The notes under the pieces are model-generated. The model did no database searches and was not told the origin of the DNA. It saw nothing but the letters and a program-made list of their open reading frames with translations. A stretch of 64,000 nt of DNA from Thermanaerothrix daxensis (GTDB lineage Bacteria > Chloroflexota > Anaerolineae > Anaerolineales > Anaerolineaceae). The first letter of the stretch is position 1, and every line of letters starts with the position of its first letter. Below are positions 46,496-58,957 of this stretch, one piece after another. The stretch covers positions 62,001 to 126,000 of the forward strand of contig NZ_LGKO01000005.1 of the NCBI RefSeq assembly GCF_001306145.1. Direction: 5' to 3'. The position numbers were made by a program, and so were the translations under genes.

Positions 46496-47989
46496 TCAGG
46501 AGGATGGCGGGTTGAGAATGAGTTTTTCAACCACCTTAGCCGAAGACACCACACCCGGTAAACCGGCGCCCGGGTGAGTGCCCGCACCGACAAAGTAGAG
46601 ATTTTCGAATTCCTCCGAGCGGTTATGCGGCCGGAACCAGGCCGATTGGGTCAGGATGGGTTCCACCGAGAAGGCAGAGCCAAGATAACTGTTGAGCACA
46701 TCGCGGAAGTGGAGCGGGTCAATGTAATGTTCAACCACCAGATTTTCACGTAGACCAGGCAGGTAGTGGGCTTCCAGGAACTCCAGGATGCGGTTCTTGT
46801 AGGGGATGGCGGTTTCCTCCCAGTTTACCTTACCCCCCAGGTGCGGGACCGGCGAGAGGACGTAGAAGGCTTCATGGCCTTCGGGTGCCAGCGAGGGGTC
46901 GGTGAGCGTGGGCATGTGCAGGTAGAGCGAGAAATCTTCAGCCAGCACCTTGCGGCGGAAGATGTCATCCAGCAATCCCTTGTAGCGGGGGCCCAGGATG
47001 ATGTTGTGGTGTGCCAGGCGACTATCCAGGTAGCGCCGTCGGGTACCAAAGTAGATCACGAACAGGGACATGCTGTAGCGCATGCGTTCGATGCGACGGT
47101 TGGTGTATTTGCGTCGGTAGACTTCTGGGATGAGGTAGCGGTAGGTGAAGGCGACATCAGCGTTTGAGATGATGATATCTGCTGTCTCCACGCTACCGTC
47201 TTTCAGGCGGATGCCCTGCACGCGCCGCCGCCCTGTATCTACCAGGATTTCGTCCACCTCGGCATTGAGCACCAACCGCCCGCCCATTTCCTGGAACAGG
47301 CGCACCAGCGCATTTACCAGTGCCCCTGTACCGCCCATAGCAAAGTAAACGCCCCATTCGCGCTCCAGGTAGTGGATCATGGCATAAATACTGCTGGCAT
47401 CGTACGGATTGCCCCCGATCAGGAGGGGGTGGAAGGAAAAGACCTGGCGCAGAAAATCATTCTGCACAAATTGAGAGACATAAGTATAAACACTTTGATA
47501 AGAACGCAGTCGCACCAGATCTGGGGCCACTTTGAGCATGTCTTTCAGGTGGGTGAACGGCTGATCGGCCAGTTGCAGAAACCCCTTCTCGAAGATGGGG
47601 CGGGTGCTTTCCAAAAAACGCCGGTACCCTTCTTTATCGGCCGGATTCCATTTTTCAATTTGAGCGTAGATCAGATCTGTTTGGTTGTTATATTCAAAAG
47701 AACGCCCCTCAGCGTCGAAAATGCGGTAAAAGGGATTGACCGGTACAAAGGTGACATAATCCTCACGCTTGCGCCCAGCCAGTTCAAACAATTCATCGAA
47801 TAAAAAGGGTGCTGTGATGACGGTGGGCCCGCCGTCAAATTTGAATCCATCCATTTCATACACGTAGGCTCGGCCGCCCGGCTTGTCGCGCTTTTCGAAT
47901 ATCGTGACCGGGTAGCCCCGTGCGGCCAGACGTATGGCAACGGCCAGACCGCCGAATCCGGAGCCTATGACAATGACGCGTTTTGACAT
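46496..47989 (-). CDS. crtI: Phytoene desaturase (CrtI/CrtN family)
   Basis: FAD-dependent desaturase of 497 residues. The N-terminal dinucleotide motif reads [16 protein letters not shown], followed by [15 protein letters not shown] and [11 protein letters not shown]. The C-terminal signature [16 protein letters not shown] is complete. It introduces double bases of conjugation into phytoene (or diapophytoene). GGAGGG lies eight bases before the ATG at 47989, which is preferred to an in-frame TTG at 48004. It lies upstream of crtB in one unit. A TTTGTATA element shared with the MerR genes lies 70 bases upstream. Confidence 0.93.
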
Positions 47990-48042
47990 GAGATGTCCCT
48001 CCAAGGTGTGAATTATTCCGATTTCAGTTATAGCATAGAGCG

Positions 48043-48067
48043 AGACGGGGCACCCCGTCTTTGTATA
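48043..48067 (-). promoter_or_regulatory. Palindrome and TTTGTATA box upstream of crtI
   Basis: AGACGGGG-CA-CCCCGTCT (48043-48060) is a perfect inverted repeat, directly followed by TTTGTATA (48060-48067). The same octamer occurs twice before the distal MerR gene. It may be the operator for the B12-binding regulators (inference). Confidence 0.45.
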
Positions 48068-48134
48068 AGGATTGTCAAGGTGCGAGCGAAAGAATGAACG
48101 CCTGGGGCTTGAACCTACGCGCTAGAAAAAATCT

Positions 48135-48593
48135 TTAGGGCGTTCCCCTGTGAGCCAGGGCGCGGGCCAGCGCGTGCTGACGATAGGTGAACAGGAAGCG
48201 CAACCCCAATGGTGAGAAGATCACGCGCGTCCAGAGGTGGCGCCACCCGGGGCGGTAAGTGTATCGGATTTGGTCCTCAACAACGGTGTGATTGGCATCC
48301 AGAGGGATAAAGGTGTGTCGGTGACGCCAGAATTTCAGAGGACCTTGCACCTGCTCATCCGTAAACCCCTGCCTGAAATCCACCTCGCGATGGATGGCCT
48401 CCCAAAAGATTGAGAAGAGACCCAGGCTCAAGCGGAACCGCAGACGGGAGCCCTCGCCCAGGGGTTCATGGTAGAGGATCTCTAGGCACAAAGGGGGTGG
48501 GGTAAGCCGTGCCAACGCCTGGGGCTGTTGATGAAAGGCGATGACGGCTTCGAGAGGCGCCTTCAAGGTGAAGCGATGGCGAAATTCTGGCAT
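48135..48593 (-). CDS. SRPBCC (START/cyclase-like) protein
   Basis: A 152-residue SRPBCC-fold protein: FRHRFTLKAPLEAVIAFHQQ opens it, and FWRHRHTFIPLDANHTVVED is the typical central sheet. Such proteins bind hydrophobic ligands; they recur in carotenoid gene clusters but their role there is not settled. It starts seven bases after the MFS stop and likely belongs to the MerR-MFS-SRPBCC unit. Confidence 0.82.
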   Translation of the reverse strand: MPEFRHRFTLKAPLEAVIAFHQQPQALARLTPPPLCLEILYHEPLGEGSRLRFRLSLGLFSIFWEAIHREVDFRQGFTDEQVQGPLKFWRHRHTFIPLDANHTVVEDQIRYTYRPGWRHLWTRVIFSPLGLRFLFTYRQHALARALAHRGTP

Positions 48594-48600
48594 CTTGGGG

Positions 48601-49824
48601 TTACTGTTCTGGAGTGACTTTCACTACCGGTTGCCTTTGGAACTCCAGGGAGAGGGGAGCCCGATAAACATAGCGCCAGACATAGGTGGTAAGCCACAGT
48701 AACAGAACACCACTGAACACACCAGGTGCCCATGTTCCCAGGTTGGCCAGCAGAAGGCTGCCCACGGCAGGGGATAGGATGCGCGTCAGGGCTTCCAGTG
48801 CCGAGGCGATTCCCAGCGTGCCGCCGACTTCAATGGGGGCAACCGTCTTGCTAATGGCGCTGTTGATGACGGTGTTGAGCACGCCCCCGCTGAGAGCGGT
48901 GGGAGCCAGGATCAGCAGGAGAACCGGCACGCTTGGGGCCAATGCCCATCCGATTAAGGAGAGGGCCATCAGAGCCGTGGAGGCCAGGATGAGCGTGCGC
49001 TCCTCGAAGCGCTGAGCCAATTTCCCAACTGCCACGCCCTGCACCAGGACCGAGAGCAGTCCCACATAAGCCAAAATGTAGCCCGTCTCCCGCGCGCCCA
49101 GGTCAAAGCGCCGCAGGGCGTAGAGAGCGAAGATGGTCTGGAACATCGAGAAGGCCAGTGCAAAGAAAAAGCGGGTGTGCAGTAAGGGCCCGACCAGGGG
49201 CTTGCGCAGCGCTTCTACCATGGCTCGTAACGTCAGCGGAGGGCGCTCGCGAGCATCCTGGCGTGCTTGCGCCGTCAGGGATTCGGGCAACCAGGCAACG
49301 ACCAGGAGGAAGTTAATCAACGAGAGCGCTGCAGCGCCCAGCGCCGGCACCGCAAACCCCCACTGCGAGAGCAATCCTCCCAGGGCCGGGCCGATGATAA
49401 AACCCAACCCGAAAGCGGCCCCGATCAGCCCCAGGCCACGGGCACGGCTGCGTGCATCCGTGACATCGCTGATGTAGGCCTGGGCCACGCTGATGTTTCC
49501 GCCGGTGAAGCCGGCCAGAATGCGCGCGACAAAGAGCATTTCAAGGGACTGCGCCAGGGCCAGCAGAACGAACCCGACCAGGTTGCCAGCAATGCTGATC
49601 AGCAGCACCGGCCGTCGCCCCACCCGGTCAGAAAGGCGTCCTAGCAGGGGGGTGCCAACAAATTGGGCGGCTGCGTAAACGGCTACCAGCAGCCCCACCT
49701 CAAAATCCGTGGCGCCAAAGGTTTCGGCATAATAGGGCAGGAGGGGCAAAATCAGCCCAAAACCCAGCAGATCAATGAAAACGATTAGGAAAATTGAAGA
49801 TAAACGTCGGTTGTTTCGTAGCAT
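48601..49824 (-). CDS. MFS transporter (TetA/DHA1-like)
   Basis: A 407-residue, twelve-helix major facilitator. The loop 2-3 motif reads GRLSDRVGRRPVLL and the helix 5 motif C reads GLIGAAFGLGFIIGPALGG, typical of drug:H+ antiporters. The substrate is unknown. It lies seven bases after the B12-binding MerR gene and before the SRPBCC gene on the same strand, so it is probably under the same light or B12 control as the carotenoid genes (inference). Confidence 0.9.
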   Translation of the reverse strand: MLRNNRRLSSIFLIVFIDLLGFGLILPLLPYYAETFGATDFEVGLLVAVYAAAQFVGTPLLGRLSDRVGRRPVLLISIAGNLVGFVLLALAQSLEMLFVARILAGFTGGNISVAQAYISDVTDARSRARGLGLIGAAFGLGFIIGPALGGLLSQWGFAVPALGAAALSLINFLLVVAWLPESLTAQARQDARERPPLTLRAMVEALRKPLVGPLLHTRFFFALAFSMFQTIFALYALRRFDLGARETGYILAYVGLLSVLVQGVAVGKLAQRFEERTLILASTALMALSLIGWALAPSVPVLLLILAPTALSGGVLNTVINSAISKTVAPIEVGGTLGIASALEALTRILSPAVGSLLLANLGTWAPGVFSGVLLLWLTTYVWRYVYRAPLSLEFQRQPVVKVTPEQ

Positions 49825-49831
49825 GAGAGAG

Positions 49832-50803
49832 TCACCTCCGGGAGGTCTTGGAGATGTGTTCTTGCATCAAACGTTCAATCAGAGCGACGGCTTCGGGGAG
49901 AGGTGCCCGCAGGTAGATGGCAGGGATCTCTTCGGGTAAACGCAGATCCTGGAATGCCTGGCCACCCAGCACGACCCAGGGTTTAGGGTCGGGAAATGCG
50001 GCAAGGGCCTGTGGCAGATCGAGCAGGTTGCGCGTCACTTCCGGCCGGGTGGCCGTGAACAGCAGCAGGCGCGGCTTGAGCGGTCCCAATGCTTCGGCCA
50101 TGCCCTCCAGTTTCAGGTCCTGGCCCAGGTACTTCACATTCCACCCACGCCAGCGCAGCATTACCACCAGCATGAGCAGGCCAATCTGATGGGTTTCGCC
50201 CGGGGCGCAGGCGGCGACGATGACACCAGGGTGGCGGGGCGGTGCCGAGGCGGCCAGCAGGCTCATCAGATGCTGTAAACAGAACTGAGTGGCAAAATGC
50301 TCCACGGCAACCGGCAACTCACCGCGGTGCCAGGCCTCGCCAATTTCCACCAGCATGGGCTGTACGACCTCAGCCAGCACCTGGTCAATGGCGTACAGCG
50401 CTGAGGCACGGCGCAAGATTTCGGTGGCGGCTTCTTCGTTGAAGTGCGTCAGGGCCTCGTAGAGGTCGCGGGCCAGGTGGCTGGGGGAGATGGGCTGCCG
50501 GATGGGGTAAAAGCGCGTTTGCTCGGCCACCGGGTCACGGCCCAGGGAGCGTAACTCGCGCCAGTACTCCACCGCCCGTCCAATGCTTAAACCGCTCTCG
50601 ATTTGCTGTTTGAGCCAGCGCAGCAGGTGGAGATCGTACTCGGAGTAAAGGCGGTAGCCCTGGTGGCTGCGACGGGGGTGAGGCAGGCCGTAGCGGCGTT
50701 CCCAGGCACGTAAAGTGACGGGCGGTAGCCCTACCAGGCGCGATACAGCCTTGATGTTGTAGACCGGCGCGTAAGGATCGTGAGAGCTCTCAGTGTTTTC
50801 CAT
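49832..50803 (-). CDS. MerR-type regulator with B12-binding domain (CarH/LitR-like)
   Basis: A 323-residue regulator. The N-terminal MerR helix-turn-helix (about residues 15-82) includes VTLRAWERRYGLPHPRR. The C-terminal cobalamin-binding part has the complete CarH set: Trp158 followed by nine residues and Glu168-His169 (WHRGELPVAVEH), and the axial His205 in GETHQIG. Family members hold adenosylcobalamin, repress carotenoid genes in the dark and release DNA in light (established for Thermus and Myxococcus). It lies next to carotenoid genes and a second paralogue. Confidence 0.92.
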   Translation of the reverse strand: MENTESSHDPYAPVYNIKAVSRLVGLPPVTLRAWERRYGLPHPRRSHQGYRLYSEYDLHLLRWLKQQIESGLSIGRAVEYWRELRSLGRDPVAEQTRFYPIRQPISPSHLARDLYEALTHFNEEAATEILRRASALYAIDQVLAEVVQPMLVEIGEAWHRGELPVAVEHFATQFCLQHLMSLLAASAPPRHPGVIVAACAPGETHQIGLLMLVVMLRWRGWNVKYLGQDLKLEGMAEALGPLKPRLLLFTATRPEVTRNLLDLPQALAAFPDPKPWVVLGGQAFQDLRLPEEIPAIYLRAPLPEAVALIERLMQEHISKTSRR

Positions 50804-50883
50804 CTAATTTTGATTGGGCGCAATTCTACCTATATGGATGATATATGTAAATATTATCACAGAGGAGTGCTATATGTATCTCC

Positions 50884-50891
50884 TTTGTACA
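50884..50891 (-). promoter_or_regulatory. TTTGTACA element upstream of the proximal MerR gene
   Basis: TTTGTACA, one base different from the TTTGTATA boxes, lies 81 bases before the ATG of the proximal MerR gene. Confidence 0.35.
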
Positions 50892-50916
50892 AGCCCGCGT
50901 TGCTTGCACAAGCCCC

Positions 50917-51882
50917 TTAACGGACGGTGCGCGAGGTACTCTTCAACAGGTCACCGATTTTATCCGCGCCCTCCGAGAGGGTCTTGCCCAGGAAAACGCC
51001 CGGTACGCGCTGGATCAGATCGGGCATCCTGAGAAAGGCAGCCCCTCCGTACCCGAAAAGCGGCGTCGGGCGCAGTCGGGATAATTTTTCCTGCAGGCGG
51101 CGCATCGCCAGGGCGGATTCTTCTGAGGTGGCGGTCAGAACGATCAGCGCGGGGCGCTCTTCGCGGGCATAATCAACCAGATCCTCCAAGGGAATGTCGG
51201 GCCCCAGGTACTCCACGCGATACCCTTCACTGCGCAGCAGGATAGCCAGCATCAGGGCGCCTAGTTCGTGCTGCTCATAAGGCGCTCCGCCTACCAGGAT
51301 GAAGGGATTCCCCCGGCGCACGGGGTAGGTTTGTAAGAGAGTCAGCAGTTTACCGCGTAAAAAGGCGCTGGCAAAGTGCTCGGTTGTAATGCGAATATCG
51401 CCCCGGTACCACGCTTCTCCAATCTGAACCAAACAGGGGACCAGCACTTGTTCAAACAAGGGGCGCAGGGCGTAGCTGCTCATGGCCTCGCGCAGGATCT
51501 CGCTCGCGCGGGCTTCATCATGCCGGATCAGGGCTTTGTAAAGTTGCTGGGTATAAACCTCCGGAGCAGCGCTGGCGGGCCGGGTTGGAGCCTGAGGCGT
51601 GGTAGGAATGGCCTCGGGCCACAAGCCGTTGCGGACCATCTGGCGCAGTTCAGCCACTGCCTCGCTGATGCTCAGGCCGTTGTCGGTGCGGTCTTTGAGC
51701 CAGCGCAGGATGGCCACATCGCGGTCGGAGTAGAGTCGGTACCGGTTCTCGGAGCGGTGCGGGGTGAGCACCTCGTGCCGTCGTTCCCAGGCGCGCAGGG
51801 TCACCGGGCGCACACCCGTCTGGGCGCTAACGGCCTTGATGGTGTACTTGGGTTCATCAGAAAGTTCTAAAATGCTGGGCAT
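50917..51882 (-). CDS. MerR-type regulator with B12-binding domain (CarH/LitR-like), paralogue
   Basis: A 321-residue paralogue of the next gene, with the same domain order: MerR helix-turn-helix (PVTLRAWERRHEVLTPHRSE) and B12-binding part with Trp158, Glu168-His169 (WYRGDIRITTEH) and axial His205 in YEQHELG. Both copies keep every known cobalamin contact, unlike the Myxococcus CarA/CarH pair in which CarA can act without B12. ATG at 51882 follows AAGGAG and is preferred over an in-frame upstream start. Three TTTGTAYA-like boxes cover its promoter, consistent with self-control. Confidence 0.92.
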   Translation of the reverse strand: MPSILELSDEPKYTIKAVSAQTGVRPVTLRAWERRHEVLTPHRSENRYRLYSDRDVAILRWLKDRTDNGLSISEAVAELRQMVRNGLWPEAIPTTPQAPTRPASAAPEVYTQQLYKALIRHDEARASEILREAMSSYALRPLFEQVLVPCLVQIGEAWYRGDIRITTEHFASAFLRGKLLTLLQTYPVRRGNPFILVGGAPYEQHELGALMLAILLRSEGYRVEYLGPDIPLEDLVDYAREERPALIVLTATSEESALAMRRLQEKLSRLRPTPLFGYGGAAFLRMPDLIQRVPGVFLGKTLSEGADKIGDLLKSTSRTVR

Positions 51883-51919
51883 GGCCTTCTCCTTTTCAAG
51901 TCGGTACATTCGGCCTGTT

Positions 51920-52063: not shown

Positions 52064-52106
52064 CATAAAAAACATCTGGCCTTGCCGCACTCCGCGGCAA
52101 GGCCAG
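52064..52106 (-). terminator. Terminator of the membrane-protein/oxidase row
   Basis: A 13-base perfect stem (CTGGCCTTGCCGC and its complement) with a 5-base loop; on the reverse strand it runs into ATG then TTTTTT. It lies 24 bases past the last gene of the row. Confidence 0.88.
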
Positions 52107-52129: not shown

Positions 52130-52831
52130 CTAGCGGCGTAGCAGGGGTTCAGAGTGAGGAGGGGTTAAAGGTAAATGGATATGGAAGTGCCACTTTCGGA
52201 CGAATAAATAAACCCCCAACCCTACCTGCCCTACCCCTGCTAATATTCTCAGAACTGGGAAGGCGGCGGCCCAATTTACCCCATTCCAGGTGTGAGTTGC
52301 GGCCATCCAAAATGGTAGAGTCAATGTAAAGATGCCGGTTACCCAGAGCGTAAAGGCAGCGATTTGGTCGCTCCCGTGTGTTGTATCCTGCCTGGTACCT
52401 GCGAAAACAGACCGCAATCTGGGTAGAAGGAAGACCAAAAAGAAGATGAGGGTAAGGGCAGTGGTATAAACGACTGCATCCACTGGCATGGATTTCCCGC
52501 GCAGGGCCCGCGAGGTCGCCATATGGAGCACACCAACCAGCAAACCCGCGATCAAGACCCTCACCGCATATTGGTGGGCGCCTGTGTGCCTGCGAATCAG
52601 GAGAACAACTGCGCGTATTCCCAATATACCAATAGATGTTGTGATGATCACGAACAAGATATATAGCCACTGAAAGCGAGCCAGTGGAGCCATATTCGGT
52701 CCAAACCCGTTAGGGTTAATGGCAACGCAACTCGTTCCCAGGCCGCTGGCCAGGGTGAAAAGGGCGGTTATTCCCATCATGAGGATCGCCAAAATGCGCA
52801 AAAAGCGAATCCATCCAGGTAATTCTTTCAT
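52130..52831 (-). CDS. Uncharacterised seven-helix membrane protein
   Basis: No family recognised. The 233 residues hold about seven hydrophobic segments, e.g. FQWLYILFVIITTSIGILGI and VLIAGLLVGVLHMATSRALR, with scattered His (HTGAHQYAV, GVLHMATS) and a His-rich tail (KWHFHIHLPL). GGGAGGGCACC precedes the ATG. It is the last gene of the row containing the oxidase-like protein and CtaB. A quinone- or heme-related role is possible but not shown. Confidence 0.72.
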   Translation of the reverse strand: MKELPGWIRFLRILAILMMGITALFTLASGLGTSCVAINPNGFGPNMAPLARFQWLYILFVIITTSIGILGIRAVVLLIRRHTGAHQYAVRVLIAGLLVGVLHMATSRALRGKSMPVDAVVYTTALTLIFFLVFLLPRLRSVFAGTRQDTTHGSDQIAAFTLWVTGIFTLTLPFWMAATHTWNGVNWAAAFPVLRILAGVGQVGLGVYLFVRKWHFHIHLPLTPPHSEPLLRR

Positions 52832-52884
52832 GGTGCCCTCCCTAAATTGAAAGGTGAATTTTGAAAGATCTCCAACTGCTTACC

Positions 52885-53490
52885 TCAGCGTAGATTAAGG
52901 CCGATAACCAGGCAGAGGGTTGAAAACAATAGTGACCACGGGAGTCGTTCCATCCATTTGTCCCATTTGCTTGCCGAACGCCCCATCCGCTGCCAGAGTA
53001 AGATCATGCCACTAATGCCAATGATGGCCCCCCCTAAACTCATTCCAAGGATAAAAGGCCTGATTTGATACAGTGCAAAAGCCAATAGAGGCAGTCCCAC
53101 GATAACCAGACCAGCGACTCCATGGACGAAAGCCACTGCTCCCACCCGTAGAGTCGGATGGGCTCTCATAAACCGGGTTATGGCGATGCCCACCCAGCCA
53201 ATCAGTATGAAACCCAGATAAGCGCTGGTGAAAGTCGGGGCATATTCGTTAACCAATCCCAGGGAGAGGCTCAAGGGGATTAGGGCCGCGAACCAGACTC
53301 CAACGACGCTATTTAACACTTCTCGCCCCATGAGGATCAACCAAACGCTCGCTACCAGGAGGATGCCAAAACCCAGGGTATAGGCCCAAGTGGCAAAGGG
53401 TGTGCTTCCAGGGTGACCCGCTGCAATTTGCCAGGCAGAAAGCAGAGCGGTGAGAGCAAGAGGGAGGACAAAGGAGAACTTTGCACGCAT
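52885..53490 (-). CDS. Uncharacterised membrane protein
   Basis: A 201-residue protein with about six hydrophobic segments, including GFGILLVASVWLILMGREVL and YLGFILIGWVGIAITRFMRA. No conserved catalytic motif is seen and no family recognised. It begins three bases after the CtaB-like gene stop, without its own strong ribosome-binding site, so it is likely translationally coupled to it. Confidence 0.72.
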   Translation of the reverse strand: MRAKFSFVLPLALTALLSAWQIAAGHPGSTPFATWAYTLGFGILLVASVWLILMGREVLNSVVGVWFAALIPLSLSLGLVNEYAPTFTSAYLGFILIGWVGIAITRFMRAHPTLRVGAVAFVHGVAGLVIVGLPLLAFALYQIRPFILGMSLGGAIIGISGMILLWQRMGRSASKWDKWMERLPWSLLFSTLCLVIGLNLR

Positions 53491-53493
53491 GGG

Positions 53494-54360
53494 TCAGAGA
53501 GCCAGAAGGAGCATGGCAGAAAGCATGTAAAGCGAAGCATATTTATACAGGCTAAAGTGGGTGCGTTCGGTAGGTCTAAGCATGACGATCAAGGCCAGAC
53601 AGAGCAACCCGGCTGAAAGGACCAACAGCAGGCGTAGATAACCCCATTGCATGCCCAGCCAAATTCCCGCTAATGTAATGGCAGCAGTGGCTAACAGACT
53701 GGAGATAGTTATGATCAATCGGGTGGTCCTGAAGCCATAGCGTGCGGGAAAGGTCGGGATGTGGGCAGCCTGATATTCATTAAAGTGCTTCAAAGAGAAA
53801 GTCAGGATGTGCGTGGGTATCCAAAACAGGACGGCCAGGGCCAGCAAAAGGCCAATCCCATCAATGGTCCCTGTCCCCAGGGTACGCCCTGCTAAAACCG
53901 GCATTCCTCCTGAGATGCCCCCCCAGAGGATGCTCCAGCAGGTGCGGCGCTTTAGCCAGAGGGTATAAACGATTACATCGAAAAACCAGCCAGCGAAGAC
54001 AATCCAGCCGTAGCCCGTGCTGATACCGAATGCCCAACCCACGCCCAGTACTGAAAGGATGACCCCCAAAATGAATGTCTCGTGGGGCGTAAGGACGCCC
54101 GCGGCCAGTGGTCGGCTCTGGGTACGCTGCATTTTGGCATCAATATCGCGGTCCCACCACATATTGAGTACGGTGCTCCCGCTGATAGCCAATCCAAGAC
54201 TGACCCCGAGGACGAACACACTGTCCAGGTGATAGACTGGGCAACGGGCACTCATGTAACCGGCCAACCCGGTAGCCAGGAGCAAGCCAGTTTGTAAAGG
54301 TTTAATCAGCGAACCATAGAGCCTGATCCGCTGTTTGATCACCGTTAACCATGTTTGCAT
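53494..54360 (-). CDS. ctaB: CtaB-like protoheme IX farnesyltransferase (UbiA family)
   Basis: A 288-residue UbiA-fold enzyme. The prenyl-diphosphate motif reads NMWWDRDIDAKMQRTQSRPL, the hallmark of heme O synthase; LWIPTHILTFSLKHFNEYQ with the second motif follows (here FWIPTHILTFSLKH). It would make heme O from heme B in the membrane. GGAGGTG precedes the ATG at 54360. Its place in the row suggests that the oxidase-like protein upstream uses heme O or A, which would not be expected of a classical heme-b NO reductase. Confidence 0.88.
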   Translation of the reverse strand: MQTWLTVIKQRIRLYGSLIKPLQTGLLLATGLAGYMSARCPVYHLDSVFVLGVSLGLAISGSTVLNMWWDRDIDAKMQRTQSRPLAAGVLTPHETFILGVILSVLGVGWAFGISTGYGWIVFAGWFFDVIVYTLWLKRRTCWSILWGGISGGMPVLAGRTLGTGTIDGIGLLLALAVLFWIPTHILTFSLKHFNEYQAAHIPTFPARYGFRTTRLIITISSLLATAAITLAGIWLGMQWGYLRLLLVLSAGLLCLALIVMLRPTERTHFSLYKYASLYMLSAMLLLAL

Positions 54361-54387
54361 AAACACCTCCGAAAGTGACAGCACGCC

Positions 54388-55329
54388 TCAGGGTTCGCGC
54401 ACACAGCGAAAGCCCGTCCCGGGTCCGTAATATGAAGGAGTGGCATTGTTGGTTACCCACACCCGTAAATCTGGAGGGTAGCTGTCTTTAGAGCCGCCGC
54501 GCATGAAGCGATAATGCATGCCCGGGGTAATGTCACTTACCCACTGCCAGACATTTCCCGCCATATCGTAAAGCCCGTATGGGCTGGGAGAGTCCAGGGT
54601 GGCAAAACCGGCGTAAGTCTCCCCATTGTAAAATCCGACAGGGGTGGTGCCGGACCCGTAGGTTCGCATATCCTCAAAAGGATCGCCACTGGCGTAGAAA
54701 TTGGCATTTGCCTTTGTGAGATCCCATCCCCAGGGATAAGGTCGTCCGTCAATTCCGCGCGCGGCTTTTTCCCATTCTAGGCCAGTTGGCAAGCGGTATC
54801 CGTAATAGCGGCAGTATCCCCAGGCCCCGAACCAGGAAACGTTGGTCATTGGGTGATTGCTTAAGCCGGAGCGGGGGGCAAAGATCTTTCCATCGAAAGT
54901 GAAGGGAGAGGCGGGATCGTTAAGCGGCACAAAGGGGTAATTTTTGGGAGAGATGGCTTCCTCGTGTTTTGCCCCATGGAACGGGTCGCCAGGATAAAAG
55001 CCTACCAGTTGGTCCGCCTCAATTTTGACAAATCCATCGGCCAGCGCTTGATTGAGAAAACGGGTGTATTGTTCAACAGTAACATCCGTGACCATGATAG
55101 TATAAGAGTGTGTCAGGGTAACCTGATCATTAAACTGCCCGGCCAGGAAAGGCCCTGCCGGAATGACCACCCAGGCCTCCGGATCAATACTAGTGTCAAC
55201 GCTTAATACCGAGGCTTCGGCCACGCTGGAACGACAGGCGCTCAATCCCAGCAGGCCGAGCAGGCAAAAGAGCCCCCATGTAAGGCGAGGAATCATTTCA
55301 CAAATAGAGGAAAATTGTACATGCCTCAT
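54388..55329 (-). CDS. SUMF1/FGE-like domain lipoprotein (NirV-like)
   Basis: A signal peptide with lipobox-like LGLSAC (Cys32 region), then a formylglycine-generating-enzyme/SUMF1 fold: YTIMVTDVTVEQYTRFLNQA, NHPMTNVSWFGAWGYCRYYG, YRLPTGLEWEKAARG, YGLYDMAGNVWQWVSD and RFMRGGSKDS are the family stretches in order. The paired catalytic Cys of true FGE are not seen near the C-terminus, so sulfatase activation is unlikely. NirV, a relative encoded near nitrite reductase, is the closest context analogue (inference). It overlaps the oxidase-like gene in an ATGA junction. Confidence 0.82.
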   Translation of the reverse strand: MRHVQFSSICEMIPRLTWGLFCLLGLLGLSACRSSVAEASVLSVDTSIDPEAWVVIPAGPFLAGQFNDQVTLTHSYTIMVTDVTVEQYTRFLNQALADGFVKIEADQLVGFYPGDPFHGAKHEEAISPKNYPFVPLNDPASPFTFDGKIFAPRSGLSNHPMTNVSWFGAWGYCRYYGYRLPTGLEWEKAARGIDGRPYPWGWDLTKANANFYASGDPFEDMRTYGSGTTPVGFYNGETYAGFATLDSPSPYGLYDMAGNVWQWVSDITPGMHYRFMRGGSKDSYPPDLRVWVTNNATPSYYGPGTGFRCVREP

Positions 55330-56804
55330 GCCTTTACCTCCAATGCGGGGTCACTTTGTTGGGCTTCTTCTGCCCAACGGCCCTGGCGCCGAAACAGATC
55401 CAGCAATCGCCAGACCAGAATCAAGGCTAGAATGACCAGCACCGTTCCCAAACCGATGTCGGTGAGCAGGAGCACGGTGTTGACCAAGGATTGTTGAGCA
55501 CTTTCACTCACTACCAGGCGCTTAAGTTCGTAAACGGTCACGGCTGCAAAAGCTAGGTCGGAGAACACAATCACCCCCCAACCGTAGAGCCGACGCACAA
55601 GCCCTTTCAGACCGATCATGTCTCCGTAGTAGAGCAAGATGATGGTGGCAATGATCCCGGAAAGGACGTGCCAATGGCCAGTCAGGATAAGGCGTTCTTC
55701 ACGCGCGGGCCATTGACGGAAGATCTCGTCCAACCTTACAGCAACAAAAATTCCAACCCCGCTGACGGTGAAATTCATGAATACCATTTGCCAGAGCGGG
55801 CCAAAACGCAGGGGGTCGTGAAGCAAGGCACGTAATTTCTGGATCGCATTTGGTTTGACAAATCCCTGGCTCCCTTCGCGGATCAACTCGTCCCAACCAT
55901 AAATGACCAGCATTAAAGCCCCCAGCATGGCCGGGGTGGCTCCCACGTAAATAATCATATGGGCAATGGGCTCCAGGGGTGTTACCACTCCCCAGACTCC
56001 CAGATTGAGAACAAGGGTACCCAGGATGAACAGGGGCATGGCAATTTTATGTAAAATGCCTTTGAAATCTAACCAGCGCCCGATGATAAGCGTTAACATG
56101 ATGGCAATAAGCGCCAGCATGATGTGGAGATGCCCAATAACTGCATACTGAAAGCCGGTTTTTTCCGGTAAGCGGATAATGTTCTCGGCCAGGAAGACCC
56201 GAAATCCGTTGCCAAAGTACGCCCCGGGCACGGCTCCAAAGAGGGCCGAGATCACAGTGGTGAGAGCGGTGGTAAAGAAAGCCACCCGTTCAAGGTCAAC
56301 GCCGTTGCGGGTGTGAGCGTAAGCCTTGGTGGTGACGAAGTAAGCCCGATCCCAAGGCCACAAAGCGATGCAGAGCAACACACCAGCGAAGAAGATCAGG
56401 GTTAGACCAGCGATGTACAGACCGTGTAAAGCCCAGTTGTGCCCCCAGTAAGCGAACCCCATTCCAGAAATCATCGCGACCAGGTACCCCACGGTGATCA
56501 GAGTTCGCACTGCTGTGCGGAGAAATGTTTTCATTTTCAGGAGGGCGGTGATGATGTAGGTCTCAATGGCAATAACCCCCATAGCAATCGTGTGGTAGAG
56601 AATAATGATGCGTCCCTCGCGCTCTGCAGGTAATAACTGCATCCCCAGGGAGCGTACAATCCAATCCCGTACCCCCAATTCTGCCATGGGACCCGATAAC
56701 ATCCCGAATAATGCGGTTTCCAGCCCGATCATGGCAACGGCTACTAAAATTAAGCCTTTGGTCGAACCGAAAAGATAACTCAAGCGCTGCCGAATCGTAA
56801 GCAT
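55326..56804 (-). CDS. Divergent heme-copper oxidase subunit I / NorB-like membrane protein
   Basis: About 492 residues and twelve or more helices. His71 in LYHTIAMGVIAIE resembles the helix II low-spin heme ligand; GHWHVLSG (His377, His379) resembles the helix X HFHYVLS pair; GHLHIMLAL (His225, His227) and PIAHMII (His282) lie where copper-site ligands would be, but the usual HPEVY and HH motifs are missing. It may be a nitric oxide reductase-like or atypical terminal reductase. ATG at 56804 follows AGGAG. The neighbours are CtaB, a NirV-like lipoprotein and a Crp/Fnr regulator. The fold call is moderate, the reaction unknown. Confidence 0.65.
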   Translation of the reverse strand: MLTIRQRLSYLFGSTKGLILVAVAMIGLETALFGMLSGPMAELGVRDWIVRSLGMQLLPAEREGRIIILYHTIAMGVIAIETYIITALLKMKTFLRTAVRTLITVGYLVAMISGMGFAYWGHNWALHGLYIAGLTLIFFAGVLLCIALWPWDRAYFVTTKAYAHTRNGVDLERVAFFTTALTTVISALFGAVPGAYFGNGFRVFLAENIIRLPEKTGFQYAVIGHLHIMLALIAIMLTLIIGRWLDFKGILHKIAMPLFILGTLVLNLGVWGVVTPLEPIAHMIIYVGATPAMLGALMLVIYGWDELIREGSQGFVKPNAIQKLRALLHDPLRFGPLWQMVFMNFTVSGVGIFVAVRLDEIFRQWPAREERLILTGHWHVLSGIIATIILLYYGDMIGLKGLVRRLYGWGVIVFSDLAFAAVTVYELKRLVVSESAQQSLVNTVLLLTDIGLGTVLVILALILVWRLLDLFRRQGRWAEEAQQSDPALEVKA

Positions 56805-56849
56805 AGCCAATCTCCTGGCAAAGTGGATTCTCTGACCCTTTGCCCCATT

Positions 56850-56895
56850 TGTTATGTTAATCACAAAAACGCACCTGGTCTTTGACTAAGGTTAA
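56850..56895 (-). promoter_or_regulatory. Candidate Crp/Fnr-controlled promoter of the oxidase-like gene
   Basis: On the reverse strand TTAAC-CTTA-GTCAA (56882-56895) matches an FNR/NNR-type palindrome and lies exactly 41.5 bases before the predicted start point (about 56847). TAACAT falls at the -10 place. A CRP-like TGTGA-N6-TAACA (56850-56865) overlaps that -10. Confidence 0.45.
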
Positions 56896-56925
56896 TCCCT
56901 AACTGTGAAATGACCCATAACGAAT

Positions 56926-56952
56926 GTTCCTAAGGGGAAATCCCTTAGGAAC
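56926..56952 (-). other. Intercistronic hairpin
   Basis: GTTCCTAAGGG/CCCTTAGGAAC, 11 perfect pairs with a 5-base loop, between the seven-helix protein gene and the oxidase-like gene. It could end or trim the upstream transcript. Confidence 0.6.
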
Positions 56953-56977
56953 CTTTGGGGCATAGGAAGAGCATCCT

Positions 56978-57754
56978 TTACGCACGTGGCTTTACGAAAT
57001 AATCCCACCATCGGGGTTGAATCAGAATTACGAGTAAACCCAAGCTGGCTAAGGGGGCCAGGGCAAAGAGCGAGAAACGCCCCAATTGTTGTGCGGTTAC
57101 CACCGCTAACGGGATGCCAACCACCAGTTCGGTGGTTGCGGCAAGTAATCCCATCACCCGTGCCCATTCACGGGGCTTATGCAGAATGGCTAGGGTTACA
57201 ACGGCCCAACCCAACATGGCTATCCAATGCAGACGTTGCACCAGGGTAAAAATGGGATCCCCGTGGGTGATTATACGGCTGGTGCTTGAGACGCCATTCA
57301 TCCAGCAAAAAATGTATGCCATGCCTGTCAATAGCCCCAACAGCGTCTGGCGCCAGGACACTTTTTCCACGGCTCTTAAGAATAGAAAATACAGCGCCAG
57401 GTAGGGCCAGAAGAGGGGGAAGTAGACCGGGGGTAAGCCGGCGGCCATATAGGGGACATTTACAAACCACGATCCTAACAGGGCCAGTACCAACCCGATA
57501 GTGGAAAGGAAAAAGGCCCAGGAGCGCCCGGTAAAGAATCCGTAGGCGCTCACGGCGAAGAAAACTCCCGCCGACAAGCCGAAATCTGCCATCAGTGGGT
57601 GAATGTATTTCAATAAGATTTCACATCCTGGCTCGGCGGATTCGGCGCTCATCCCAACGCGGTACCATTGCAGGAAAAGTACAATGTGCCCAATGATCCC
57701 CATGAGGGCTGCAATGAGCGCCAATACACCACCTAAAACTTGACGATTTTTCAT
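56978..57754 (-). CDS. Uncharacterised seven-helix membrane protein
   Basis: A 258-residue protein with about seven to eight hydrophobic segments (LGGVLALIAALMGIIGHIVL; GLVLALLGSWFVNVPYMAAG). Possible ligands are His in MGIIGHIVLF, KYIHPLMAD and QRLHWIAML; one extracellular-looking Cys lies in EPGCEILLKYIH. No family recognised. AGGAGG precedes the ATG. It lies 17 bases after the Cys/His-rich lipoprotein gene, and the oxidase-like gene follows after a hairpin. Confidence 0.72.
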   Translation of the reverse strand: MKNRQVLGGVLALIAALMGIIGHIVLFLQWYRVGMSAESAEPGCEILLKYIHPLMADFGLSAGVFFAVSAYGFFTGRSWAFFLSTIGLVLALLGSWFVNVPYMAAGLPPVYFPLFWPYLALYFLFLRAVEKVSWRQTLLGLLTGMAYIFCWMNGVSSTSRIITHGDPIFTLVQRLHWIAMLGWAVVTLAILHKPREWARVMGLLAATTELVVGIPLAVVTAQQLGRFSLFALAPLASLGLLVILIQPRWWDYFVKPRA

Positions 57755-57771
57755 CCTAGCCTCCTCGTTTT

Positions 57772-58203
57772 CTATGGATTGTTAATTTCGCCGGTGTGGC
57801 AGGAACAGCCATTGTAATAAGCCGCATCATGATGAGCCGCTACATAAACAACCGTTCCTGGGGCAATGGTTAGATTGCAACCTTTCAGAAATGTGGGGGA
57901 TCGCTCCCAGGCCATGACCTGGACTTTGCACGAAACGTAGACGGTGCCGCTCCAGGTATCATTGCAGAGGGGACCTTCAACAACTTTATCTACCACCACC
58001 ATCTTTCCTCCGATCTTGACCAGGATGGGGGTTGGGGAGGGTCCTGGCGTTGGGGTTGTCGGAGGCATGGGGGTGGGTAAGGCTGTCAGATAAGAAGGGG
58101 GTTCGCCCGCAGATTGACAGGGATTCTTTTCAGACTGACAGGCGGAGATCAGGATGTTTGCTAAGATTAGTACGAAAAGCCTCAACAAGTGGGTAGGCCG
58201 CAT
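57772..58203 (-). CDS. Cys/His-rich lipoprotein
   Basis: The signal peptide ends in lipobox ILISAC, followed by a Pro/Thr linker (PTPMPPTTPTPGPSPTP) and a ~75-residue domain. The domain has GPLCNDTWSGTVYVSCKVQV, LKGCNLTIAPG, then AAHHDAAYYNGCSCHTGE at the C-terminus, so several Cys and a HH pair could bind a metal or cluster. The CxCH run is not a normal CxxCH heme site. No family recognised. GGAGGTG precedes the ATG at 58203. First gene of the row, divergent from the Crp/Fnr gene. Confidence 0.72.
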   Translation of the reverse strand: MRPTHLLRLFVLILANILISACQSEKNPCQSAGEPPSYLTALPTPMPPTTPTPGPSPTPILVKIGGKMVVVDKVVEGPLCNDTWSGTVYVSCKVQVMAWERSPTFLKGCNLTIAPGTVVYVAAHHDAAYYNGCSCHTGEINNP

Positions 58204-58219
58204 GTTCACCTCCCGTCTG

Positions 58220-58279
58220 TGTGAAACATAGCACAAAGGCGGTCAAGGCGGCTTTAACTTAACGCAAATAAGATAGAAT
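58220..58279. promoter_or_regulatory. Divergent promoter region with CRP-type palindrome
   Basis: TGTGA-N6-GCACA at 58220-58235 is one base from the CRP palindrome. On the reverse strand it covers an extended -10 (TGC-TATGTT, 58225-58230 core) of the lipoprotein gene. On the forward strand TAGAAT at 58274-58279 lies six bases before the Crp/Fnr ATG. Confidence 0.5.
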
Positions 58280-58285
58280 GGAGTT

Positions 58286-58957
58286 ATGAAACTCTTCGAT
58301 GTGCTCCAAACGCATTCTGTCTTTGCCTCCCTGGAAGAGGAAGAGCAAATGTACCTTGCCCAACATGCCCGGGTACACCCGTATCAGAAAGGCGAGGTGG
58401 TGGCGGTACAAGGTGATGAATGGCCTCATCTTTTCTTGATTCTGAAAGGGGAAATCCAGGCGGTTAAAGTCTCACCCGAGGGCCGGGCATTGATGGTGAC
58501 GACTTTTTCCAGAAATGAGATCTTTTGGGGCCCTGCTTTTTTTGAAGAGGGTCTCTTGCTGCCAGTTACTCTGGAGGCTGCCCAACCTGCCACCCTGGCC
58601 ATATGGTCGCGAGCGGTCTTAGAGCCCTTGCTGGTTAAGGGGGGAATAGGGTGGGCATTAGCGCGCCTGATGCTTCAGTACATGCTGCGAGCAAACATCC
58701 TGCTGGAACGTCTGGCGTTTCAGCCCGTAACGGCACGGCTGGCACACTTACTGCTTGAGCACTTCCAGGCCACAGAAAGCCCCGCCATTCCACGTACTTT
58801 GACCCTGGATGAAATTGCCGCGCGCATCGGCACCACGCGCGAGGTGGTCTGCCGCACCCTTTACTACCTGGCAGATCGGAACATGATCGAGGTGACCCGG
58901 ACGGAGTTCATCCTTGTTGATCGTGAGGGATTGAAGCATTTGGCAGAGGGTTCTTAA
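58286..58957 (+). CDS. Crp/Fnr family transcriptional regulator
   Basis: A 223-residue regulator with an N-terminal cyclic-nucleotide-binding-like barrel and a C-terminal winged helix. The recognition helix reads TTREVVCRTL, keeping Arg185, Glu186 and Arg190 equivalent to the three CRP residues that read TGTGA half-sites. No N-terminal Cys cluster is present, so it is not an iron-sulfur FNR; it may bind a nucleotide, or heme/NO as in DNR. It is divergent from the oxidase-like row and is the obvious candidate to control it. Likely leaderless: TAGAAT lies six bases before ATG. Confidence 0.9.
   Translation: MKLFDVLQTHSVFASLEEEEQMYLAQHARVHPYQKGEVVAVQGDEWPHLFLILKGEIQAVKVSPEGRALMVTTFSRNEIFWGPAFFEEGLLLPVTLEAAQPATLAIWSRAVLEPLLVKGGIGWALARLMLQYMLRANILLERLAFQPVTARLAHLLLEHFQATESPAIPRTLTLDEIAARIGTTREVVCRTLYYLADRNMIEVTRTEFILVDREGLKHLAEGS

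Follow-up and report, generated by a model that had tools for sequence, protein, structure and literature searches.

A conserved gene cluster, mostly of Anaerolineae, around a protein with a predicted heme-copper oxidase fold outside the known families

The present study concerns seven genes, g1 to g7, on the minus strand of a 64,000-nt stretch of DNA from Thermanaerothrix daxensis (contig NZ_LGKO01000005.1, positions 62001-126000; genome size 3.0 Mb), which we refer to as the window. The product of g5 is a membrane protein that, according to structural modeling, very probably has the fold of heme-copper oxidases (HCOs), and it would be a non-canonical HCO-fold protein, matching none of the known families. 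The conserved operon around it is real, and its constant core, far from chance, consists of g5, a lipoprotein with a domain of formylglycine-generating enzymes (FGE), and the heme O synthase CtaB. Our best reading is that g5 is an unrecognized, heme O-dependent gas reductase, most likely for nitric oxide (NO), in which we have nearly, if not quite, even confidence. A first-pass annotation of the window, based on its letters and open reading frames, had suspected a respiratory or NO-handling system with a NorB-like subunit at this locus; this hunch is right in kind and not in the NorB detail. Catalysis, metals, and substrate are inferred.

Predicted fold and absence of a sequence signature

The AlphaFold model of g5, built from a 50-row alignment, had a pLDDT of 82.4 and a pTM of 0.87 and contained 12 long helices. 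Foldseek ranked ba3 and cbb3 oxidases at the top (E = 4.1e-4 and 7.7e-4), with two chains at E<=0.001, and VIA-align gave a best Z of 22.4 (rmsd 4.3 over 410 residues) with the cbb3 chain 8smr_E. All 50 rows listed by VIA-align were HCO, NO reductase (NOR), or respiratory-supercomplex entries (Z 18.5-22.4), the titles of which did not always name the chain; as a yardstick, five mostly helical models that lacked a clear match reached a best Z of approximately 14. Structure prediction, which the first-pass annotation had proposed as a check, thus gave an HCO-like fold for this gene.

The sequence searches did not detect this relationship. None of 50 g5 members matched PF00115 (COX1) at E<=1, and PF05940 (NnrS) was absent from the 23 families that these members matched at the same threshold. 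No NCBIfam model was matched by any of 29 g5-family sequences at E<=0.01, two g5-family profiles found no match among the PDB sequences, where the single g5 sequence had only a chance-level one (E 0.15), and plasmid and phage collections contained no g5 match. In hhalign comparisons, the g5 family reached 0.2-3.1% with Cox1, NOR/cbb3, and B-type sets (3.1% with the NOR/cbb3 set), while the positive control, NOR/cbb3 against Cox1, reached 98.4%; therefore, we do not claim HCO membership for g5 at the sequence level, and the label "NorB-like" is not supported in that sense. A literature search of titles and abstract openings, the scope of which did not include the NO-reductase survey by Murali et al. 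(2024), found no description of the family.

Invariant histidines and the internal repeat

Histidines were compared in an alignment of 50 sequences and in a second one of 29, which included 13 divergent members at 35-46% identity. Seven of the 11 histidines of g5 were invariant in both (50/50 and 29/29), namely, H71 in transmembrane helix (TM) 2, H127 in TM4, H225 and H227 in TM6, H282 at the start of TM8, and H377 and H379 in TM10. In the AlphaFold model, each of the seven lies in an even-numbered helix, 4-13 residues from its start, and they are, thus, presumably all on one side of the membrane. The heme-ligand pattern of HCOs, consisting of the TM2 His and the TM10 His-x-His, is present in every sequence of both alignments, and we regard heme binding by g5 as highly likely.

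The oxygen reductases of the A/B or C types have a crosslinked Tyr in TM6 or TM7. In cNOR and qNOR, the FeB His of TM6 is followed by a Glu at position +4, and NorC or a fused cytochrome-like domain is present. In g5, the residue four positions after H225 was Met in 29/29 sequences, instead of Tyr or Glu. Helix VII (250-270) had no invariant His, with H252 at its start being present in 46/50 but 18/29 sequences, and its Tyr residues were sporadic (at most 5/29 at any one position).

Two weak hhalign alignments placed HCO TM9-TM10 on g5 TM5-TM6, which led us to test for an internal repeat. Thirds two and three of g5 aligned at 95.3% (E 2e-8), whereas thirds one and two (7.0%) were weak and thirds one and three reached 1.3%; reversed controls did not exceed 1.7%. 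A comparable repeat was present in the NOR/cbb3 set (thirds one and three, 95.0%) and was not seen between the thirds of the Cox1 set (hhalign <=1.0%). The weak alignment between thirds one and two, read by eye, pairs H71 with H227 and H127 with H282; the arrangement of the histidines thus seems to mirror the threefold repeat of this fold. A further alignment, of third two of g5 with the last third of Cox1 (19.9% over 33 columns), was not used.

Conservation of the cluster

A g5 match was found in 10/41 close genomes and in 56/298 sampled genomes of the class, with T. daxensis itself counted in both; several of the latter were only fragments, and in one genome of a set of 13, the match was limited to 37 residues and contained a stop. 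Scanning the GTDB species genomes gave 293 stretches with a g5 relative. The best 80 of these, which were kept, were mostly from Anaerolineae, Anaerolineales, or Chloroflexi metagenome-assembled genomes, the nearest (84%) being from a Thermanaerothrix sp., and one each was from Neomarinimicrobiota, KSB1, Ignavibacteria, and Aminicenantes.

Gene neighborhoods were counted in 84 non-duplicate loci (five duplicates removed), which were picked by similarity and, thus, describe the close subfamily; the denominators below are testable loci, and eight loci were left out of locus clustering. The FGE gene was downstream of g5 in 78/78 loci (distance between centers, 684-1265 nt) and CtaB in 75/77 (1643-2627 nt). 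Downstream of g5, g1 was present in 51/64 and g2 in 54/68 loci, with a paralogue of g2 being upstream of g5 in 43/75, while g6 was upstream in 45/66 and g7 was present in 13/62. A Crp-family gene occupied the upstream flank in 50/58 loci, in 24 of them on the same strand. The neighborhood that the first-pass annotation would have looked for in other genomes is, therefore, present in many, and neither of the two outcomes that it had named as refutations came up.

Two loci carry additional genes upstream of the g5 operon (L016:1557-4115 and L019:13980-17566). They encode a membrane 4Fe-4S protein (with a Fer4_5 match for L016) and a secreted protein, the HSCGA motif of which is repeated in L019. 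At L086:2713-4173, the g5 homologue is split over two frames, as would result from a frameshift or an error in sequencing.

A dedicated heme O synthase

The genome of T. daxensis also contains an ordinary Cox1 with a CtaA-CtaB frame approximately 4 kb away, which holds its other strong CtaB, so that the CtaB of the operon is a second, dedicated copy. Nine carriers of g5 had no COX1 match. CtaA and CtaB were tested in five of these, G111 (completeness 99%, contamination 1%), G395 (95%, 3%), G267 (93%), G398 (82%), and G281 (73%), the other four being G271, G345, G479, and G496. CtaA, the heme A synthase, was found in 0/5 of these draft genomes, and CtaB adjoined g5 and the FGE gene in 5/5. The operon CtaB was the only strong TIGR01473 match in G111, G395, G398, and G281; weaker UbiA-type matches had E-values of 7e-9 (G111), 4e-17 (G395), and 4e-19 (G398). 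A heme O synthase without another recognized client, such as that of G111, makes g5 its likely user. Within the limits set by draft genomes and by a possible HCO elsewhere that is invisible to the profiles, we consider it probable that g5 uses heme O, and the link to this heme that had been suggested by CtaB next to g5 is supported.

Candidate regulatory sites

The palindrome TTGAY-N4-RTCAA, which was defined after a first sighting and tested on related loci, occurred with at least 9/10 positions within 200 nt before g5 in 30/85 loci, compared with 80/1700 random windows, and 26 of the 30 loci had it at 71-99 nt before g5; in view of this choice of motif and loci, Fisher values for such sites are only descriptive. 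Perfect sites were found in 15/85 loci and in 5/1700 random windows. The copy in the window of T. daxensis has 9/10 positions and lies 91 nt upstream of g5; by itself it is not above chance (three one-mismatch TTGACN4GTCAA matches with 1.4 expected). A second palindrome, TGTGA-N6-TCACA, scored at least 9 upstream of 19/31 divergent Crp-family genes (29 loci), compared with 30/1550 random windows.

In the work by Rodionov et al. (2005; PMC1274295), both wyTTGACnnnnGTCAArw and wTGTGAnnnnnnTCACAw are given as HcpR motifs in different delta-proteobacteria, TTGACnnnnGTCAA is placed before norB of Synechocystis, divergent from a relative of hcpR, and an Arg in the recognition helix is linked with the TGTGA-type motif. 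The regulator in the window, with the recognition helix TTREVVCR, shares this Arg with the TGTGA-type HcpR described there. As far as they can be read from sequence, the candidate sites support anaerobic or nitrosative control; NO is not proven.

Neighbors of divergent relatives and genome co-occurrence

Thirteen divergent loci were read (L147, L148, and L172-L182). CtaB followed g5 in four of them, directly in L172, L173, and L179 and within approximately 0.5 kb in L181. In L147, a flavodiiron protein was directly upstream, the best NCBIfam match of which, below the cut-off, was NO reductase flavorubredoxin. An HCO subunit I was upstream in three others, directly in L148 and L175 and approximately 0.6 kb off in L174, and the remaining five had no CtaB, flavodiiron, or HCO neighbor. 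The HCO is preceded in L148 and L175 by a cupredoxin-like subunit (II) without the CuA Cys. By eye, the three HCOs have Asp in place of the TM6 CuB His and Asp at the place of the NorB Glu, while the TM7 His-His and TM10 His-x-His are kept; they are perhaps a divergent NO reductase. Considering the NOR-like HCO and flavodiiron neighbors, this gene context points to NO chemistry in the neighborhood of the g5 family. The NO handling proposed in the first-pass annotation is accordingly backed indirectly, by the regulatory sites and by the neighbors of divergent relatives, and it is not proven.

The possibility that the g5 operon is a standard denitrification partner was ruled out, since NosZ above the cut-off was rarer in g5 carriers (5/56) than in the other genomes (56/242; kinship ignored). 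NnrS is rare in the phylum (2/61 genomes, one over the cut-off).

Separate observations concern membrane proteins at weak COX1 matches with few HCO ligands (L149:678-2279, L150:613-2223, L151:763-2229, and L165:839-2179); that of L165 has an AHAH motif, similar by eye to the TM6 His-x-His of g5. Two frames, G071:C154:5148-6545 (724 residues) and G080:C25:27274-28671 (749 residues), each matched COX1 partially at three separate places, which gives the impression of a repeat structure.

Proposed function and alternatives

In the mechanism that we propose, g5 would be the catalytic subunit of an unrecognized branch of the HCO fold. As in HCOs, a low-spin heme would be bound by H71 (helix II) and H379 (helix X). 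A high-spin heme would be bound by H377 and would probably be heme O from the dedicated CtaB; the positions of both hemes are inferred. H225 and H227 (helix VI), H282 (helix VIII), and H127 (helix IV) would take the place of the classical CuB site, which involves helices VI and VII. Electrons would presumably be derived from the quinol pool or an unrecognized donor. The substrate would be a small gas, most likely NO, which would be reduced to N2O either for detoxification or to gain energy under anoxia. The system would be switched on by regulators of the CRP/FNR family, and the SUMF1-like lipoprotein, g1, g2, and g6 may be structural or assembly partners. A role of g5 as a catalytic reductase is moderately favored, whereas NO as its substrate is a tentative assignment.

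Several findings weigh against this proposal. The g5 model is weak at 351-380 (block means of 53, 40, and 52), the stretch with H377 and H379, and H127 and H282 are placed by helix rather than by spatial coordinates. The TM7 His-His pair for CuB/FeB is missing, with H225 of TM6 being present; g5 has no significant match to any HCO in the profile, PDB, or hhalign comparisons, and no electron-donor subunit is recognized for it. G267, in spite of lacking a COX1 match, has a second strong CtaB. FNR- and CRP-type sites are not specific to NO, the same motifs fitting FNR and CRP, and NosZ is rarer in carriers. COX1 was somewhat commoner in carriers (47/56) than in other genomes (164/242; kinship ignored), which would also fit oxygen chemistry.

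The strongest alternative is that g5 is a new type of oxygen reductase, which would use heme O to scavenge or respire O2 when oxygen is low. Its nearest folds, ba3 and cbb3, are those of O2 reductases, and there are known O2 reductases that work with heme O. Considering the invariant Met after H225, the lack of a conserved Tyr in helix VII, the missing CuB His pair, and the FNR/HcpR-type sites, we regard this alternative as rather unlikely. Slightly less probable still is an accessory hemoprotein that serves other oxidases or NO reductases by storing, transferring, or inserting heme O, without a gas reaction of its own; the constant pairing with CtaB and the NOR-like HCO just upstream in L148, L174, and L175 would suit such a protein, but G111 and G395 carry the operon and no COX1-type protein to be served. 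A heme-based NO/O2 stress protein without turnover, similar to NnrS, is improbable: the locus L016 has an NnrS-like neighbor with a similar His layout (TM2 H, TM6 HxH, and a later H; by eye), and NnrS genes belong to NO regulons in the material presented in PMC1274295, but PF05940 is unmatched in the 50 members and the TM10 HxH of catalytic HCOs is invariant in g5.

Layout of the locus and the partner proteins

The transcription order is g7, g6, g5, g4, g3, g2, and g1 (Table 1), and the open reading frame list was confirmed. The intergenic distances are 53 nt (g1-g2), 3 nt (g2-g3), 3 nt (g3-g4), -4 nt (g4-g5, an overlap), 173 nt (g5-g6), and 17 nt (g6-g7). Since the 173-nt gap before g5 has its own candidate regulatory site, the operon may be split into two transcription units. 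This gap also contains an 11-pair hairpin without a T-run at 56926-56952, which may be a processing or attenuation element. Elsewhere in the window, 46496-51909 encodes a desaturase-like FAD protein, which by eye is similar to phytoene desaturase, together with two regulators of the MerR type that have B12-binding domains; we take this region to resemble light-controlled carotenoid loci.

Table 1. Coordinates of the cluster features in the window and of HCO genes near divergent g5 relatives
Feature	Position	Strand	Remarks
Intrinsic-terminator-like hairpin after g1	52076-52106	-	14-pair stem and T-run
g1, membrane protein	52130-52831	-	C35, H103, H180 invariant in 15 aligned
g2, membrane protein	52885-53490	-	alignment of 15 sequences, H123 invariant
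g3, CtaB/CyoE heme O synthase	53494-54384	-	TIGR01473
g4, SUMF1/FGE-domain lipoprotein	54388-55329	-	PF03781; conserved Cys32 (lipobox), Cys173, Cys309
g5, 12-TM protein, predicted HCO fold	55326-56804	-	AlphaFold model, Foldseek, VIA-align; ATG at 56804, AGGAGA before it
FNR/HcpR-type palindrome TTAACCTTAGTCAA, one mismatch	56882-56895	letters on -	91 nt before g5
g6, membrane protein	56978-57754	-	approximately 8 predicted helices; no conserved His
g7, lipoprotein	57772-58203	-	conserved Cys and His; C-terminal CSCH
CRP-type palindrome TGTGAAACATAGCACA, 9/10 positions	58220-58235		divergent promoter
Divergent Crp/Fnr-family regulator	58286-58957	+	PF13545, PF00027; one Cys only; recognition helix TTREVVCR
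Upstream HCO subunit I, divergent locus	L148:9819-11879		
Upstream HCO subunit I, divergent locus	L174:1599-3476		
Upstream HCO subunit I, divergent locus	L175:6135-8186		

Accepted Pfam and NCBIfam families were obtained for g3, g4, and the regulator; g1, g2, g5, g6, and g7 had nothing above the curated cut-offs, with sub-threshold matches for g1, g5, and g7 only. The g3 protein matched TIGR01473 (E 5.9e-62) with 210.0 bits in one search (cut-off 210.3) and 211 bits, over the cut-off, in another; D78, D80, D82, and R91 were conserved in 62 sequences, and the Asp-rich motif of CtaB/CyoE is present. The g4 protein matched PF03781 (E 9.7e-34). Formylglycine-generating enzymes have a catalytic Cys pair near the C terminus; no such pair is conserved in 68 g4 sequences, in which the conserved Cys were limited to C32, C173, and C309. 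For g2, there was no Pfam, NCBIfam, or PDB sequence match; g1 had no accepted Pfam family and one chance-level match among PDB sequences, to cytochrome b-245 (E 0.07). No Pfam family was found in 16 members of g6 and no PDB sequence matched it, and its model, from a single sequence, was of low confidence (pLDDT 57.6). The candidacy of g7 as a cytochrome c was rejected, as 9/14 relatives have CSCH and 5/14 have CxxCH. The arrangement of seven reverse-strand genes, strong terminator, and divergent Crp/Fnr gene that the first-pass annotation had described, its identification of CtaB and SUMF1, and its remark that a subunit II or cytochrome c gene is missing all stand, with neither of the latter two being recognized in the cluster.

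Comparison with known systems

Genome surveys count NO and O2 reductases by means of HCO profiles, and a family with the same fold that is not picked up by the profiles tried here would be overlooked in studies of the nitrogen cycle and of respiration. The extent of such an oversight is indicated by the share of sampled genomes of a single class, almost one in five, that have a g5 match, if only as a fragment in some. The active site of g5 would show how far the HCO fold may drift with its hemes kept, and the sequence-detectable repeat bears on the origin of this fold.

Compared with HCO subunit I (PF00115; ba3, cbb3, and aa3), g5 shares the predicted 12-TM fold, the TM2 His, a TM6 His, and the TM10 HxH, but differs in having no detectable sequence similarity, TM7 His-His, or conserved crosslink Tyr, in its additional invariant His in TM4 and TM8 and its second HxH in TM6, and in a cluster without a recognized subunit II or III gene. 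With NorB of cNOR and qNOR, it has in common the fold (4xyd_A, Z 19.6) and the absence of a conserved TM6 Tyr, and with the NOR/cbb3 set the internal repeat; unlike in these enzymes, the Glu at position +4 from the TM6 His is replaced by Met, the cluster has no recognized NorC, and a dedicated heme O synthase is present, which agrees with the mismatch to a classical NO reductase that had been noted at the outset. The TM2 His and TM6 HxH are shared, by eye, with the NnrS-like neighbor, whereas the lack of a profile match, the TM10 HxH, and the fixed operon with CtaB and FGE separate g5 from NnrS (PF05940). The eNOR, gNOR, sNOR, bNOR, and nNOR types are HCO-fold NO reductases with altered active sites, which g5 would resemble in this respect; in the annotation procedure given in PMC12569097, they are assigned by an HMM search for the HCO family, whereas g5 has no COX1 match. 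Taken together, these comparisons leave room for the tentative proposal that g5 is the first member of a class of its own among gas reductases with the HCO fold. This class would be heme O-dependent, would have a seven-His array by threefold repeat instead of CuB (His-x-His in helices VI and X, one His each in IV and VIII), would work without a subunit II, and would be common in Anaerolineae, with some representatives in a few further phyla.

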